Below are positions 14,984 through 31,479 of a stretch of 64,000 nt of DNA, piece by piece (the stretch's first letter is position 1; the number at the start of each line of letters is the position of its first letter). Below the pieces are notes generated by a model. That model was not told the origin of the DNA. It did not search any database and saw only the letters and a program-made list of their open reading frames with translations. Source of the stretch: Actinomycetota bacterium (GTDB taxonomy: Bacteria; Actinomycetota; Aquicultoria; Subteraquimicrobiales; Subteraquimicrobiaceae); NCBI GenBank assembly GCA_030018275.1, contig JASEGB010000006.1, positions 1-64,000 of the forward strand, written 5' to 3'. The position numbers were made by a program, and so were the translations under genes.

Positions 14984-15427
14984 TTGGAGTGGGTGGTTCC
15001 TTTGCAGGAAAAATTTTACAATAAAGTTATCGAGAAGACCAAAACTATAGTAAGAATCATGGAGTTATTGGTTGCATGCCTTTTGATTTTGATGATTCTT
15101 CTTGGCTTAAGCTACTTAGTGGTCAAACTGACGGAATACTTTGGAACCCATTTCTATTTGACTTCTTTTGAAATCCATTCCATGCTCGATGTGGTTCTAG
15201 CAATCTTCATAGTAATAGAGCTGTTCCGAATCACGATAGCCTATGCAGATGAAAGGGAAGTATTGCCAACTGTACTTGAGGCTGTCTTTGTGGTCGTTGC
15301 CCGAAAGGTGGTATTGTATGAATTTAAGACCGAAAAGCTTGTTGGGGCAATCGCTTTGGCTCTTTTGCTCATCCCAGTAGTTCTGGCTTATTTTCTATTA
15401 TGGAAGAGAGAGCACAAGGAACATTGA
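14984..15427 (+). CDS. PsiE-like four-helix membrane protein
   Basis: The 147-residue protein has four predicted membrane helices (about 26-48, 61-79, 95-108 and 120-140). Between helices is the PsiE-type motif LFRITIAYADERE. PsiE family proteins were named for phosphate-starvation induction in E. coli; their function is unknown. The start is uncertain between TTG 14984, GTG 14993 and TTG 15002; the last has a GGAG/GGGTGG stretch upstream. Confidence 0.75.
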   Translation: MEWVVPLQEKFYNKVIEKTKTIVRIMELLVACLLILMILLGLSYLVVKLTEYFGTHFYLTSFEIHSMLDVVLAIFIVIELFRITIAYADEREVLPTVLEAVFVVVARKVVLYEFKTEKLVGAIALALLLIPVVLAYFLLWKREHKEH

Positions 15428-15513
15428 ACCGATTAAAGCGCGACATTTGGCACCGTGTCCCGTCCCGTTGCCGAAAGGATCGACAGGCAGCCTCTAAAAA
15501 AGGAGGGTTGCAA

Positions 15514-15585
15514 TGGGACCCCGAGAAGTGCCCAGCCTGTGGATATCCTCGGACATATTATGAACTTCTATGTGAAAATTATTGA
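15514..15585 (+). pseudogene. Rubrerythrin C-terminal fragment
   Basis: The frame encodes WDPEKCPACGYPRTYYELL followed by CENY and a stop. This resembles the rubredoxin-like end of rubrerythrins (PEKCPVC...AYFE...ENY). Upstream of 15514 there is no diiron ferritin-like domain, and only one of the usual Cys pairs is left. I read it as the tail of a deleted gene for peroxide defence. The rest of 15428-15722 holds nothing recognisable. Confidence 0.5.
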
Positions 15586-15722
15586 TATTTTAGGTGAGGC
15601 AATTCGAAAGCTTGACGAGAGGAATTTGGAGCGCTATTCTTGGTTTGCACAATGTGAGCTCTCATGATTCTTGAAAATCATCTCTATTTTTGATTAAGTT
15701 TTCAGAGAAAGGATGGGCAAAA

Positions 15723-16491: not shown

Positions 16492-16564
16492 GGGGATGTA
16501 GCTCAGTTGGGAGAGCGCCGCCCTTGCAAGGCGGAGGTCGGCGGTTCGAATCCGCTCATCTCCA
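16492..16564 (+). tRNA. tRNA-Ala(TGC), integration target
   Basis: Acceptor GGGGATG pairs with CATCTCC (one G-T), the anticodon loop is CTTGCAA with TGC, and the T arm is GGCGGTTCGAATCCGC. CCA is not encoded. The 3' half from 16523 is repeated exactly at 20542, marking it as the attachment site of the element downstream. The tRNA itself stays intact. Confidence 0.97.
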
Positions 16565-16567
16565 CTT
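16523..16567. repeat. attL: 45-bp direct repeat (tRNA-Ala 3' half)
   Basis: Identical over 45 bp to 20542-20586. It covers the anticodon to the 3' end of tRNA-Ala plus three bases. The integrase stop codon begins at the next base. Confidence 0.9.
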
Positions 16568-17710
16568 CTATTTTGGCAGGTTAGGTGGTATATTTTGAGT
16601 CGGAAGGTTGTTTTGGAGTTTCCATTTTTTATGATTTGCTAATATTTTGCTAACAGGTGTCCCAAAAACTGCACTTTCAAGCCTTTCTCCGGCTCCACAT
16701 TGCACCTCAGGCATCAGATGTCCGTACCTATCCAAAGTCGTCTTGGCCGATGAGTGGCCAAGCTGGCTTTGGATGAATTTAAGGTTTTCCCCTTGGGCAA
16801 TAAGGATGGAAGCATAAGTATGCCTGAGGTCGTGGAATCTGATCCTCCTCAAACCAGCCTGTCTTAAGGCGGGCAGGAAGTGGCGGTTTATGACATTCCT
16901 GGGATCAGCTAACTTACCTTCCTCGTTTGGAAATACCAGGTCGAGCTCAGAAAGCGGACAGGAGAGTTTATGCTTCTTAAGCACCTTTAGGAGGGTCGGT
17001 GATGCAACTAAGGCTCTCTTAGAGGCTCTGGATTTTGGTTCCGCTAAGCGTCCCAAAGAGACCTGCCGTCGAACGTGGATGTGGCCCGTTTCCCCAATTA
17101 ATGTCACTCCACTTCAGTGCCAGAAGTTCCCCTAATCTCATACCTGTTAAAGCCGCTGTTAAAAAGAACGGATAATACTTTTTGTCCACAGCCTTTAAAA
17201 ATGCCTGAAGCTCCTCTATGGTAAGGTAATCCATCTCCTCTTCCTCTGCTGGGGGAGCATCAACGCGATCAGCCGGATTCTGAGCGAGGTACCCCCAAAT
17301 AACCGCCCTTTTGAGCAAGCTTTTGAGCAACCGGAAATGCTTGAGAATGGACGCCGGTTTAAGCCTTGTCCACTTTCCTTTAGCACTCAAATACTCTTCT
17401 ATCAGTCGCGGATTTATCTCCGTTAGGTTGAATTCACCAAAGTGAGGATTTAGGTGGAGCCTAATGATATCGGAGTAGCGTCTGTAGGTTGATTCTCGCA
17501 CCCTGTGTTCCGCATAATCCCTCAGCCACTTCTCCGCAAACGCCTTGAAGGTTATCTCATTTAAGTCTTGATAGGTTCCCCTACTTACTTCACCTAAGAC
17601 CTGGATGAGGACACGTTCGGCATCCTTCTTCCTGGGGCCTATGGCTTTCCAGCCACGCGATAGACGATGTAGTAATTCTTACCACGCTTGATAATACATC
17701 CCCTGGCCAT
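16568..17710 (-). pseudogene. Tyrosine-type integrase, two frameshifts
   Basis: Phage-type site-specific recombinase. From ATG 17710 the product begins MARGCIIKRGKNYYIVYRVAGK and hits TAG at once; the frame changes near 17641-17648 and continues IGPRKKDAERVL. A second shift lies in a run of four G near 17094 (INWG/GETGHIHVRRQ). The SAM-like core-binding domain and catalytic domain are otherwise complete: TGMRLGELLALK, HDLRHTYAS, LGHSSAKTTLDRYGHLM. The stop codon touches the attL repeat. Sequencing error is possible, but two independent shifts favour a dead gene. Confidence 0.88.
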
Positions 17711-17772
17711 CTCTTCACCTCCTCTCTTCCTTCTTTCTATGTTTTGGGGGCCTTCCCCTCTTACCTGGGACT

Positions 17773-18027
17773 CTACCCGCAACCACGTTCTCGCAGCTCA
17801 ATCCCCTCCCCCGCCCCCTCCCCTGGAAATTTGCGGGTCTCGAACGGAAAATTTCCAGGTGGGACTCCCTTATTTGCATTATATTTCGCAGTTTTAGATG
17901 GGCTCTCAGCAGAGTTGAGATCGCCTTCCTTGGGGATTACGTCAACATCTCGGAGGGGGCGCCTACTCCTTGGGATAGGATTCTTATCCCGTGGTTTTGT
18001 GATTATTTCCCCAAGAGGTGCACGCAT
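17773..18027 (-). CDS. Possible small protein upstream of the integrase (weak)
   Basis: An 84-codon frame on the integrase strand, charged and proline-rich (LRDVDVIPKEGDLNSAESPSK), with no recognised family. Its position would suit an excisionase or a small accessory protein, but there is no HTH signature and a frame on the other strand covers the same bases. Low confidence that it is expressed. Confidence 0.2.
   Translation of the reverse strand: MRAPLGEIITKPRDKNPIPRSRRPLRDVDVIPKEGDLNSAESPSKTAKYNANKGVPPGNFPFETRKFPGEGAGEGIELRERGCG
17822..17859. repeat. 11-bp inverted repeat in the element
   Basis: CCTGGAAATTT (17822-17832) and AAATTTCCAGG (17849-17859) are perfect complements around a 16-base loop, about 110 bases upstream of the integrase start. 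It could be a recombinase accessory or operator site, or a hairpin. Confidence 0.55.
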
Positions 18028-18067
18028 TTACGTCCACGTCTCAGAGATAAATAAGATCAGTGTGTAA

Positions 18068-18444
18068 ATACCTCGCTAGGGCGCATCCAAAGCTTTTAGA
18101 GACGAGAAAATGGGTGGGTTAATGGTTTTATACCCACCCCATTGGGGAGTGGGGGGACAGCGCTGTAATCTTATCTCCAAGGAGAATGTGAGTATCTCCG
18201 GCACCGCCGGTGGTACCCCTCGGCTTCAGCACCGACCCAGGGAAAATCGAAGCCCAGATTTGCTCCCTAAGCTCTTGAAATATGTGGATAGGCGCTAAAC
18301 CATTGGTCTTTTCAGAAATCAGCTCAGATGGCTCATTGATGATTCATCTACCTGGGCAAACTCTAAAAACACTCAGGTAAGGATTAGAGAGCGGATTGCT
18401 AGAAGGAAAATGAAGCGCCGTGTCGAAATCTAATTCCAATCAAA
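18068..18444. other. Leader region of the SLH protein gene
   Basis: No gene is seen. A short GC hairpin around CCACCCCATTGGGGAGTGG (about 18137-18155) is present. No known riboswitch was recognised, and no good ribosome site precedes ATG 18445. Confidence 0.35.
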
Positions 18445-20190
18445 ATGAGAAAATCGATTTTGGGAGGGAAAAGGTATCTAGCTTTGCTTGTCATCAGCAC
18501 CCTTATGCTCACTTTAATCCCCATCTCGCCTGCCGCTGCCACGGAGGTAAGTGGAGAAATCACCAAGGATACCACTTGGACCGTAGCTGGTAGTCCTTAC
18601 ATCGTGACGGATGATGTATTCGTGGAAAACGGAGCCACCCTAACCATCGAGCCTGGGGTAGAGGTTAAGTTCAATAGAGGGGCAGGTGAAAAGCTATTTT
18701 CTCTACGGATTGGTTCAGTAGGAGGAGGAACTCTCATCGCCGATGGTACTTGGGATGACCCCATCATATTTACCTCAAACCGACCCTATCCAGTACCAGG
18801 GGATTGGGATTGTATCTTTTTTGGCGATTCAAGCGTGGACGCGAAGTGCATTGTGGATAACTGTATAATTGAATATGCCTCGCATGGCATCCACTGTGAT
18901 CGCTCTTCTCCAACCATTAGCAATAATCTCCTTATGAAGACCAAATATTATGGTGTTTGTTGCGATGGGGCTTCCCCAAAGATCACGGACAACGTGATTT
19001 TTGACAATAGAGGCGGCATCGATTGCTCTTATTCCAGCCCAACCATCACTGGCAATATGATTACTACAAACCGCGGTTTCGGCATCAGCTGTATGGAAGC
19101 TGAACCATTGATTGAAGGAAACATCATCTCAGATAACGATTCCTCCGGCATCGATCTATCATTCAACTCCGATGCCACGATTATAAACAACGAGATAGTT
19201 GGCAATGGGTACGGCATCGGCTGCAGCTATTCATCTCCAGGCATCGTCAATAACACCATCGCCGACAACTCCAATAGTGGCATCTGGTGCACATATTACG
19301 CTTTTCCATATATAGTAAATAATATTATTACCGGAAATGATTGGGGGGGAATTTATTGCTATGCTACTTCCTTCCCCTCCACCATCGGCTTTAATGATGT
19401 CTGGGGCAACGGTTATGATTACGATGGTTGTTCGCCCGGTTACGGAGATATCTCAGCCGATCCTCAATTTGTGGATGCGGGGTTTGGAGATTATCACCTT
19501 CGGTTCGGCTCCCCTTGCATTGATGCGGGAACAAATGCTAGAGCGCCGGGTGTTGATTTGGAGGGTAACCCTCGCCCCTATGATGGAGATGGCGATGGTG
19601 TTGCCACCGTGGATATGGGTGCATATGAATACTCTGGGTTCATTCCACCTGCGGAACCCACATTCCCCGATGTTCCCAGCGACTTCTGGTCCTATTTTGA
19701 GATAGAATTCATGGTATATCAGGGAATAATCTCCGGCTATGCCGATGGGCTCTTCCGCCCGGCTGATCCAGTGTTCAGGTCCCAGTTCACAAAGATGCTC
19801 GTGAACTCCCTGGGATTTCCCACGGATACTAGTGGAGGGCCACATTTCACCGATGTCCCTCCGGATCATTGGGCTTATGATTTCATAGAGACCGCCTACA
19901 ACAATGGGATAGTACAGGGTTACGGAGATGGAAGATTCGGTCCCGAGGATTTGGCAACCAGGGCTCATCTTGCCACAATGCTGGTCAGGGGACTGGAAAT
20001 AGCTCCAAACATGCAATACCAAGGATACTTCCCCGATGTGCCAGAAGATCACTGGGCGTGGCAGTACATAGAGACAGCCTATGAGGAGGGCATAGTCAGG
20101 GGTTATGGTGATGGAAGCTTTGGGCCGGAACAGATTGTGAGAAGGGATCAGACCGCCGTGATGATCTATAGGGCAATATTCGGACCTTAA
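18445..20190 (+). CDS. Secreted right-handed beta-helix protein with three SLH domains
   Basis: Residues 1-33 form a signal peptide (KRYLALLVISTLMLTLIPIS, then PAAA). Residues about 50-330 hold NosD/pectate-lyase-like parallel beta-helix repeats (NNxI, SPTITGNMITTN, PGIVNNTIADN). Three S-layer homology domains follow: FPDVPSDFWSYFEIEFM, FTDVPPDHWAYDFIETAY and FPDVPEDHWAWQYIETAY, each with a GYADG/GYGDG turn. SLH domains bind pyruvylated wall polymer, so it sits on the cell surface. The catalytic or binding target is unknown. It is the only sizeable cargo of the tRNA-Ala element. Confidence 0.92.
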   Translation: MRKSILGGKRYLALLVISTLMLTLIPISPAAATEVSGEITKDTTWTVAGSPYIVTDDVFVENGATLTIEPGVEVKFNRGAGEKLFSLRIGSVGGGTLIADGTWDDPIIFTSNRPYPVPGDWDCIFFGDSSVDAKCIVDNCIIEYASHGIHCDRSSPTISNNLLMKTKYYGVCCDGASPKITDNVIFDNRGGIDCSYSSPTITGNMITTNRGFGISCMEAEPLIEGNIISDNDSSGIDLSFNSDATIINNEIVGNGYGIGCSYSSPGIVNNTIADNSNSGIWCTYYAFPYIVNNIITGNDWGGIYCYATSFPSTIGFNDVWGNGYDYDGCSPGYGDISADPQFVDAGFGDYHLRFGSPCIDAGTNARAPGVDLEGNPRPYDGDGDGVATVDMGAYEYSGFIPPAEPTFPDVPSDFWSYFEIEFMVYQGIISGYADGLFRPADPVFRSQFTKMLVNSLGFPTDTSGGPHFTDVPPDHWAYDFIETAYNNGIVQGYGDGRFGPEDLATRAHLATMLVRGLEIAPNMQYQGYFPDVPEDHWAWQYIETAYEEGIVRGYGDGSFGPEQIVRRDQTAVMIYRAIFGP

Positions 20191-20226
20191 TACATATATT
20201 CCATGGGTCTAGGTGAATATATGATT

Positions 20227-20308
20227 TCTCCCCAGCCGTGACGGCTAGATCGCCAGGAGGATGTGGTCGCTTGGATGCTGGTTCGTATGAGCTCGACGGC
20301 TGAGGAGA
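20227..20308. repeat. 13-bp inverted repeat with 56-base loop downstream of the SLH gene
   Basis: TCTCCCCAGCCGT (20227-20239) pairs with ACGGCTGAGGAGA (20296-20308) at 12 of 13 positions. Inside the left arm, GCCGTGACGGC (20235-20245) can form a competing hairpin. No T-run follows, so it is not a plain terminator. It may be a structured RNA or a protein site. The rest of 20191-20541 shows nothing else. Confidence 0.5.
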
Positions 20309-20541
20309 TAACTCAATATCAAGTCTTTGTAGGCGGGTCTTTCCAAACTACCCCATTGGATATTTATTTAGTACTTCCAAATCACCCGCCTCCGGATTCA
20401 GTTTTATGATTAATTGAGTATAAAATTTAGCCAAAACATGGTAATTTAAAGTAATCTTAGGTAACTATGAGTTGCGAATCTTCCCAGCTCAGGTAATGTA
20501 TCATAAACTAACGCAACCCAAGATAATGTGCCCAATTTTAA

Positions 20542-20586
20542 CTTGCAAGGCGGAGGTCGGCGGTTCGAATCCGCTCATCTCCACTT
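20542..20586. repeat. attR: 45-bp direct repeat of tRNA-Ala 3' half
   Basis: Exact copy of 16523-16567, lacking the 5' half of the tRNA, so it is a footprint of integration and not a functional tRNA. Confidence 0.92.
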
Positions 20587-29682: not shown

Positions 29683-29758
29683 GCGCCTGTAGCTCAGTGG
29701 ACAGAGCGCCGGACTTCGAATCCGAAGGTCGGGGGTTCAAGTCCCTCCAGGCGCACCA
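29683..29758 (+). tRNA. tRNA-Arg(TCG)
   Basis: Acceptor GCGCCTG pairs with CAGGCGC, anticodon loop CTTCGAA with TCG, encoded ACCA. Confidence 0.97.
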
Positions 29759-29802
29759 TTCCAAAATCACTTTTGGAGATCAAATTTTTCTTAGAAAAAT
29801 TA

Positions 29803-29875
29803 GGGTCGTTAGCTCAGTTGGTAGAGCGGCGGACTCTTAATCCGTTGGTCGCAGGTTCGAGTCCTGCACGACCCA
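29803..29875 (+). tRNA. tRNA-Lys(CTT)
   Basis: Acceptor GGGTCGT pairs with ACGACCC, anticodon loop CTCTTAA with CTT. CCA is not encoded. Hairpins TCCAAAA-TCAC-TTTTGGA (29760-29777) and AATTTTTC-TTA-GAAAAATT (29783-29801) fill the spacer before it. Confidence 0.97.
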
Positions 29876-29941
29876 CAAAAACCAGTCAAGAGTGAAGAGT
29901 CAAAAGTTAACCATCAACTGCTAACCAATAACTGAATTTGG

Positions 29942-30023
<82 letters not shown>

Positions 30024-30088
30024 CATTTGCATTATAATCTTAACGAGTATTTATAACCGTGGTTCAGTCCGAAACCGCTAATAACTGA

Positions 30089-30107
30089 GCCTCGGCTTTG
30101 CCGAGGC
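30089..30107. repeat. Perfect 8-bp hairpin upstream of tig
   Basis: GCCTCGGC, TTT, GCCGAGGC. No T-run follows. Same architecture, a perfect stem with a 3-base loop, as those between the tRNAs. Confidence 0.6.
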
Positions 30108-30132
30108 ACTTAATTATAAGGAGAAGATATTT

Positions 30133-31479
30133 TTGAAGACAACGGTCGAGGAACTCGAAAAGAACAAAGTCTTATTAAAGGTAGAAGTCCCCGCGGGCGA
30201 CGTGGATCAAGCCATAAAGAAGGCATATAAGAGCATATCCAACAAAGTGAGCATTCCGGGGTTTCGAAAGGGAAGGATCCCAAGGAAGATCATCGATGCT
30301 CGGATCGGGAAGGAATCGGTATTGCAGGAGGTGCTCAGTGAGATGCTCCCGGTCTACTATTTGCAGGCGGTTGAAAAGAGTGGGATAAAACCCATCGATA
30401 AACCGGAAATCGAAGTTGTCCGGTTAGAGGAGGGTCAACCCCTTTTATTCAATGCCAAGGTGCAGGTCAAGCCAAAGGTTAAGTTGGGTAAATATAAGGG
30501 TGTAAAGGTAAAAATGCCCTCCATCGAGGTCTCCGATAAGGAGATTAATGGCCATATAGAGCTGTTAAAGGATAGATTCGCCCAGCTTGAGCCAGTGACG
30601 AGGAATCTCCACAAGGATGACTTTGCTTTGATTGACTTTGAGGGCTTTGTGGATGGCAAGCCCTTTGAAGGAGGTTCGGCCAACGATTACCTACTCCAGG
30701 TCGGTTCAGGCACTTTCGCCCCTGGTTTCGAGGACAAACTCATTGGGGCTCGTAGGGGGGAAATAAGGGAAATCTTCATCGATATGCCCCAAGAGCACCC
30801 CATCGCCGAAATTGCGGGGAAAAAGGTAAAATTCAAAGTTTTTGTAAAGGAGATAAAGCAAAAGAAACTTCCCAAAGTGAATGATGAATTCGCCAAGGAG
30901 GTTGGCGAATTCGAAACCTTGAAGGAGCTTAAAGATGATGTTAGGGGGAGGTTGGAGGAGGCAAAGCGGGCCCAAGACCAGTACGCTCTCCGTGGCAAGG
31001 TTCTTGAAGCTGTTTCAGAAGGTGCTGAAGTGGAAATTCCCGAGATAATGGCGGAGCGTAGGGTAAATGAGATGATAAGCGAATTTTCCTTTAATCTCAA
31101 AAGCAGGGGGCTCGATTTGAATGATTATTTGAAGACCACCAATACCAACATGGAAAGTTTAAGGGGGCGTTTTAAAAAGGATGCCTTAAGAACCTTAAAA
31201 AATGAGCTCGTCTTGGGGGCTATCGGAGAGAAAGAAGGACTTGAAGTTAAAGAGGAAGAAGTTGATAATGAAATTGAGAAGTTAGCCCAAAGGATGAATG
31301 TGGAAGCGAGTGAGGTCAAAAAGCGGTTAGAGGAGAGAGGGAATTTGGAACTTTTAAGAGAAGATATCCTATTGCGGAAGACCTTAGATTGGCTGGTCAA
31401 TCAAGCTGAGATCAAGAGGGAAAGGAAGGGAAAGAAAAATGACCAACCTGTTAATCCCAATAGTGGTGGAGCAGACTAA
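30133..31479 (+). CDS. tig: Trigger factor
   Basis: Ribosome-bound chaperone and peptidyl-prolyl isomerase. The ribosome-docking loop [12 protein letters not shown] is at residues 39-50, the FKBP-type domain around 155-240, and a long helical C-terminal chaperone arm to 448. TTG start after AAGGAGAAG. The 3' end overlaps clpP by 41 bases, giving the classic tig-clpP-clpX order. Confidence 0.97.

Follow-up and report, generated by a model that had tools for sequence, protein, structure and literature searches.

Evidence for a relocated S-layer gene within a decayed tRNA-Ala-integrated element of Candidatus Subteraquimicrobium

The window analysed here is a stretch of 64,000 nucleotides from Candidatus Subteraquimicrobium, class Aquicultoria, a deep-subsurface actinobacterium of an uncultured group (genome G000). 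It was compared with two congeners (G001 and G002), which brings the genus sample to three genomes, and with a class sample of 36 genomes that includes G000. The basis throughout is draft assemblies, a single one of 38 contigs for G000. In what follows, B denotes the cargo gene of the locus and the corresponding S-layer gene of the chromosomal csaB cluster, and A denotes the SLH gene upstream of the place of B in that cluster. The features of the locus are as follows.

16492 to 16565, + strand: intact tRNA-Ala(TGC), the gene hosting the integration site (ARAGORN, Rfam RF00005)
16523 to 16567, + strand: attL, a 45-bp repeat from the tRNA anticodon loop to the 3′ end (exact repeat)
16568 to 17087, − strand: C-terminal piece of the integrase, catalytic domain including HDLRHTYAS and the YGHL region, in its own frame (Pfam Phage_integrase, 1.6e-14; residues 217-363 of an intact homolog)
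17088 to 17651, − strand: middle piece of the integrase, SAM-like N-terminal domain and start of the catalytic domain, in the second frame (residues 27-214 of an intact homolog)
17660 to 17712, − strand: N-terminal piece of the integrase with start codon, in the first frame (residues 1-17 of an intact homolog)
17713 to 18437: leader without a recognisable gene
18445 to 20190, + strand: cargo gene B, 581-aa SLH-anchored beta-helix protein with predicted export (Pfam, AlphaFold2)
20213 to 20541: attR-proximal element arm common to the G002 element, two blocks of 77-78% DNA identity (alignment to G002)
20440 to 20467, + strand: three 10-bp direct repeats (GGTAATTTAA AGTAATCTTA GGTAACTA..), candidate arm-type integrase sites (pattern scan)
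20542 to 20586, + strand: attR, second copy of the 45-bp repeat (exact repeat)

The two repeat copies (16523-16567 and 20542-20586) match exactly and can be extended on neither side, and the first starts in the anticodon loop of tRNA-Ala(TGC) and ends 2 nt beyond the gene. Tyrosine integrases usually have this att layout, from the anticodon loop to just beyond the tRNA 3′ end. No further exact copy of the repeat was found in the window, and a genome search with the tRNA part of the query returned other matches of only 75-85%, at apparent other tRNA genes and at one tRNA-Arg/integrase locus; the exact 45-bp match is far beyond chance. The preliminary description of this DNA had proposed a tRNA-Ala-integrated element delimited by exact direct repeats of the tRNA 3′ half. 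The coordinates were confirmed, and the proposal is borne out by the repeats at both borders together with the integrase pieces abutting attL. The 4.0 kb between the repeats consist of the broken − strand integrase, 0.73 kb in which no gene was recognised and which has no match in the other 35 class genomes, one intact gene, and about 350 bp. An Rfam scan detected two tRNAs and nothing else.

Alignment of the integrase to two intact homologs (371 aa in G002 and 373 aa in G024, a genome from a distant genus of the class) resolved it into three pieces in alternating frames, with breaks near 17652-17660 and near 17080-17088 and no additional stops. The two frameshifts reported earlier are therefore real, and with them the element cannot supply its own integrase, excise, or move by its own means. 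The integrase lies on the − strand adjacent to the tRNA, oriented like its homologs, which in other class genomes adjoin tRNA-Ala, Met, Arg, Phe, and SeC genes; a search of IMG/VR with the integrase found no relatives. The intact G024 homolog is located at tRNA-Ala with larger cargo, including a T2SSE/CpaF-type secretion ATPase and a PrgI-family protein of T4SS type, and the intact G002 homolog at tRNA-Met adjoins a type ISP restriction-modification gene. Given the larger cargo beside these intact homologs, the present 4.0 kb, previously described as a minimal element, looks like a decayed remnant rather than something specially minimal. It contains none of the conjugation or transfer genes that would mark an integrative conjugative element.

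The G024 locus (C125; L101:4148-14381), next to tRNA-Ala(TGC), also encodes a secreted nuclease homolog and is a candidate integrative conjugative element. In G002 (C120; L102:84-4483), the intact integrase lies between tRNA-Met and the restriction-modification protein, which is 1030 aa long, and this locus is a probable defence island. The closest related integrase within G000 (64% aa identity) is another decayed relative, a shortened 258-aa ORF on C11 (about 29758-30611; L033:7759-8612) that lies directly beside tRNA-Arg(CCT); no further copy of the tRNA repeat was seen over about 10 kb.

The only clear cargo is, as first described, an SLH beta-helix protein, encoded by the one intact ORF in the 4.0 kb and containing NosD/Beta_helix and three SLH domains according to Pfam. 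A signal peptide (about aa 1-32, called by inspection, with a hydrophobic helix at aa 6-23) is followed by a beta-helix (about aa 33-300) and the three SLH domains (about aa 406-581). In an AlphaFold2 model built from a four-row alignment, a beta-helix spans about aa 31-270, with blocks at mean pLDDT of 71-93, and the rest is of low confidence. In the PDB, the model matched generic beta-helix enzymes as well as phage tailspikes (TM-scores 0.2-0.37); the best matches, the AlgG/AlgE epimerases (TM 0.22-0.32), indicate resemblance at fold level only. The protein is modelled as a right-handed beta-helix, and on the strength of these matches we claim no enzyme activity for it. No relatives of the cargo were found in IMG/VR, and a first scan of the genome contigs with the cargo gave no matches. 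Matches in phage records were weak and fell mainly in the SLH part (27-35% identity), and a phage carrier is consequently not indicated. A promoter and terminator scan performed no better than chance. The ribosome-binding-site check was uninformative, since no more than 13 of the 35 long + strand ORFs, when read from the first ATG, have the motif, and for that reason the lack of a congener-like GGAG-type motif upstream of the G000 B was left unused as evidence.

All three species have csaB (PF04230) in their chromosomal SLH cluster, in G000 at C2:135804-136727 with a match of 2.3e-42, which makes SLH anchoring of the cargo plausible. Judging from its domains, the B protein would be exported and its SLH domains would attach to pyruvylated cell-wall polysaccharide made by CsaB, and its beta-helix, a fast-changing one given its divergence, would then be displayed at the surface. 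Effects on phage sensitivity, adhesion, or polysaccharide use, which the preliminary description raised as possibilities, would be hypothetical.

To the csaB cluster B itself can be traced. Each genome of the genus has only one full-length homolog, at tRNA-Ala in G000 and in the csaB cluster in G001 and G002. The G001 ortholog (C21:17270-19018; 76% aa identity) adjoins gene A in that cluster, and the G002 ortholog was located at the ends of C150 and C85, contigs on which the remaining genes correspond to those of the cluster; both congener orthologs are away from any tRNA repeat. In the G000 cluster (C2), A runs directly into the downstream region and B is absent: the 3′ end of A has B-type last codons and continues into what lies directly downstream of B in G002. 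In this assembly, the sole location of the G000 B is between the tRNA repeats. Window and cluster are homologous from 18438, 7 nt before the B start codon, to 20201, 11 nt after the stop. Because the ortholog is in the csaB cluster of both congeners and has been lost from that of G000, the cargo is, on these sequence comparisons, a gene of the genus at a new address, and the view of it as a foreign accessory gene falls away. The preliminary description had also held that relatives carrying the same genes without the repeats would speak against an element; such relatives exist for the cargo gene, in the csaB cluster, but not for the element.

Divergence of B is uneven along its length. Between G000 and G001, backbone dS is 0.055 for csaB and 0.11 for hemE, and between G000 and G002 it is 0.23-0.31. 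For B, dS to G001 is 0.17 (aa 21-150), 0.70 (150-290), 0.27 (317-410), and 1.05 (SLH), and dS to G002 over the same segments is 0.35, 0.16, 0.46, and 0.99. Species order is kept in aa 21-150 and 317-410, G001 is the odd one out in aa 150-290, and G000 is the odd one in the SLH part. This mosaic pattern would favour a resident gene that moved and recombined. In the SLH part of the G000 B, tracts are 92-94% identical to the G000 gene A versus 84-87% to the orthologs, so that local gene conversion is probable there. A separate observation concerns the G000 cluster, where the SLH-coding 3′ ends of cluster genes (C2:131049-131558 and 147592-148104) share near-identical tracts, with 100% identity in one 70-column alignment window, which suggests ongoing gene conversion among the S-layer genes of this genome.

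The occupants of the tRNA-Ala site differ by species: 4.0 kb in G000, 5.4 kb in G002, and 2.65 kb in G001. The G002 insert (contig C94) closes with a second tRNA copy carrying a 3-nt deletion, and the last few hundred bases before that copy match 20213-20541 of the window. The triple 10-bp repeat occurs once in G000 and once in G002, at the same position, and was found in none of the 34 other class genomes and not in a reversed control. Within the G002 insert (L048:2260-7660) are a gene in which a zinc-dependent phospholipase C-like domain is fused to an SLH domain, and which is broken by a frameshift and lies beside a dispersed repeat, and ORFs of 536 aa and 326 aa with signal-like N-termini and no Pfam match. 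A T-arm variant peculiar to G002 is present in both of its tRNA copies, as would be expected if the integrations were separate or if the copies had been homogenised. The G001 insert is unrelated (a BrkB-type gene and others), almost entirely lacks counterparts in the other species, and is not closed by a second tRNA repeat; it neither supports nor refutes an element there. To the right of attR, the sequence is conserved as far as hemE in G000 and G002. Comparison of the site in relatives, suggested earlier as a source of empty and larger versions, thus yielded larger or different occupants but no empty version, since both congeners have other DNA there. The expected empty form would read tRNA-Ala...CTCCAC-TTTTTTATTT.

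We consider it somewhat better than even (a probability of roughly 0.55) that 16523-20586 is a decayed tyrosine-integrase element at a tRNA-Ala hotspot that holds B as a relocated resident S-layer gene. The element inserted in the 3′ half of tRNA-Ala(TGC), where attL and attR are seen, and has decayed to the state in which its integrase is dead. B is gone from the cluster of this assembly, and the junction there points to recombination between the 3′ ends that encode the SLH domains of A and B as the apparent cause. Most probably, B itself or a copy was transferred from cluster to element in the G000 lineage, and shared SLH modules may have allowed exchange between element and chromosome. In favour of this reading are the repeats, the integrase orientation as in the homologs, and the attR arm and triple repeat, which are common only to the G002 element at the same site; the G002 element, too, held an SLH-anchored gene, now broken. 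The single full-length homolog of B in each genome, the junction at the end of the G000 A, the B segments in species order, the low dS of aa 150-290 to G002, and the A-like tracts in the SLH part point the same way. Against it, the least diverged 5′ and middle segments of B (dS to G001 0.17-0.27) still exceed hemE and csaB, which a simple recent move does not predict, and the move has left no trace in the form of flanking cluster DNA, homology ending 7 nt short of the start codon. The reading draws on three genus genomes in draft assembly, with no empty site among them.

The divergence of B from the sister species (dS 0.36 in the N-part and 1.05 in the SLH part, against 0.055-0.11 for the backbone) could instead mean that an active tRNA-Ala element brought B from an unsampled Subteraquimicrobium species, after which the redundant resident B was deleted by SLH-SLH recombination. 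B does lie inside an element with att sites, in an upstream context wholly different from that of the cluster, and its aa 150-290 are nearer to the more distant species G002. Several B segments nevertheless keep species order, aa 150-290 of the G001 B itself appear to have been replaced, much of the excess divergence is explained by conversion of the SLH part with local paralogs, and searches of the class genomes and IMG/VR turned up no donor element containing B; we regard such an import as possible but doubtful. A misjoin of SLH paralogs, such that B is not truly at tRNA-Ala or the C2 cluster deletion is unreal, is improbable. The 38-contig draft contains several SLH paralogs, and contig C24 ends 254 bp past an SLH gene; yet the G000 SLH paralogs are mostly 74-81% identical over their length, low for k-mer misjoins despite short near-identical tracts, the attR arm beside B recurs at the same site in the independent G002 assembly, and the assembly has a completeness of 99% and a contamination of 0.2%. 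That no element exists at all, the second tRNA piece being a chance or recombinational partial duplication and the integrase fragment unrelated debris, we find very hard to credit: tRNA fragments can duplicate without elements and the integrase is broken, but against it stand the anticodon-loop start of the repeat, as at classical att sites in tRNA genes, an integrase placed directly beside the tRNA and oriented as in its homologs, and, next to the other repeat copy in two species, a conserved arm containing candidate integrase sites.

The nearest precedent is the S-layer gene cspB (PS2) of Corynebacterium glutamicum, which, according to PMC12337289 (citing Hansmeier et al. 2006), is carried on an island of about 6 kb with an integrase and occurs in variable genomic contexts. 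The gene tree of cspB largely follows the genomes, and the authors favour recombination and deletion over far transfer (PMC12337289). Both cases place an actinobacterial S-layer gene on a small integrase-bearing island. The cspB product is a mycomembrane-anchored S-layer protein, and its island has a 7-bp repeat and an IS element (PMC12337289), whereas the present protein is SLH-anchored, with a 45-bp tRNA-Ala att and an identifiable source cluster for its gene. Surface genes on so small an element, which the preliminary description called unusual, are indeed uncommon but were already known from the cspB island. With ICEth1 of Thermus thermophilus, the element shares insertion at a tRNA 3′ end, direct repeats of 45-47 bp, and a phage-type site-specific recombinase (PMC5365140). 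ICEth1, however, is 14.9 kb long with a 47 bp repeat, excises actively, and has transfer functions (PMC5365140), unlike this remnant of 4.0 kb with its dead integrase and no transfer genes. The cargo resembles csaB-linked SLH S-layer clusters in being the ortholog of a cluster gene in both congeners, and G000 has csaB and the cluster; it differs in that the G000 gene sits outside the cluster, within the element. A literature search that covered few subscription journals found no tRNA-integrated SLH-gene element.

The locus reveals no new kind of element or mechanism and is mostly an ordinary case of mobile DNA shuffling surface genes. Its specific interest is that source cluster and scar of loss are both visible, so that comparison of three congeners allows the path of a chromosomal S-layer gene to be followed from home cluster to mobile-element site, and it bears on surface-coat diversification in uncultured subsurface Actinomycetota. 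A broader idea, which we think unlikely as yet and offer as speculation, is that the tRNA-Ala elements of the genus repeatedly serve to store and exchange SLH-anchored surface proteins, with SLH modules as recombination handles between csaB cluster and mobile elements. Relevant to it are the SLH genes in two of the three site occupants and the conversion tracts between element gene and cluster gene; if it were true, S-layer variety would be partly mobile.

The stretch from tRNA-Ile to tRNA-Ala is also rearranged among the three species. At 15400-15586, the window contains a remnant of a rubrerythrin-like gene (C-terminal ...CPACGYPRTYYELLCENY), which in G001 is an intact 173-aa ORF (L047:8752-9273).
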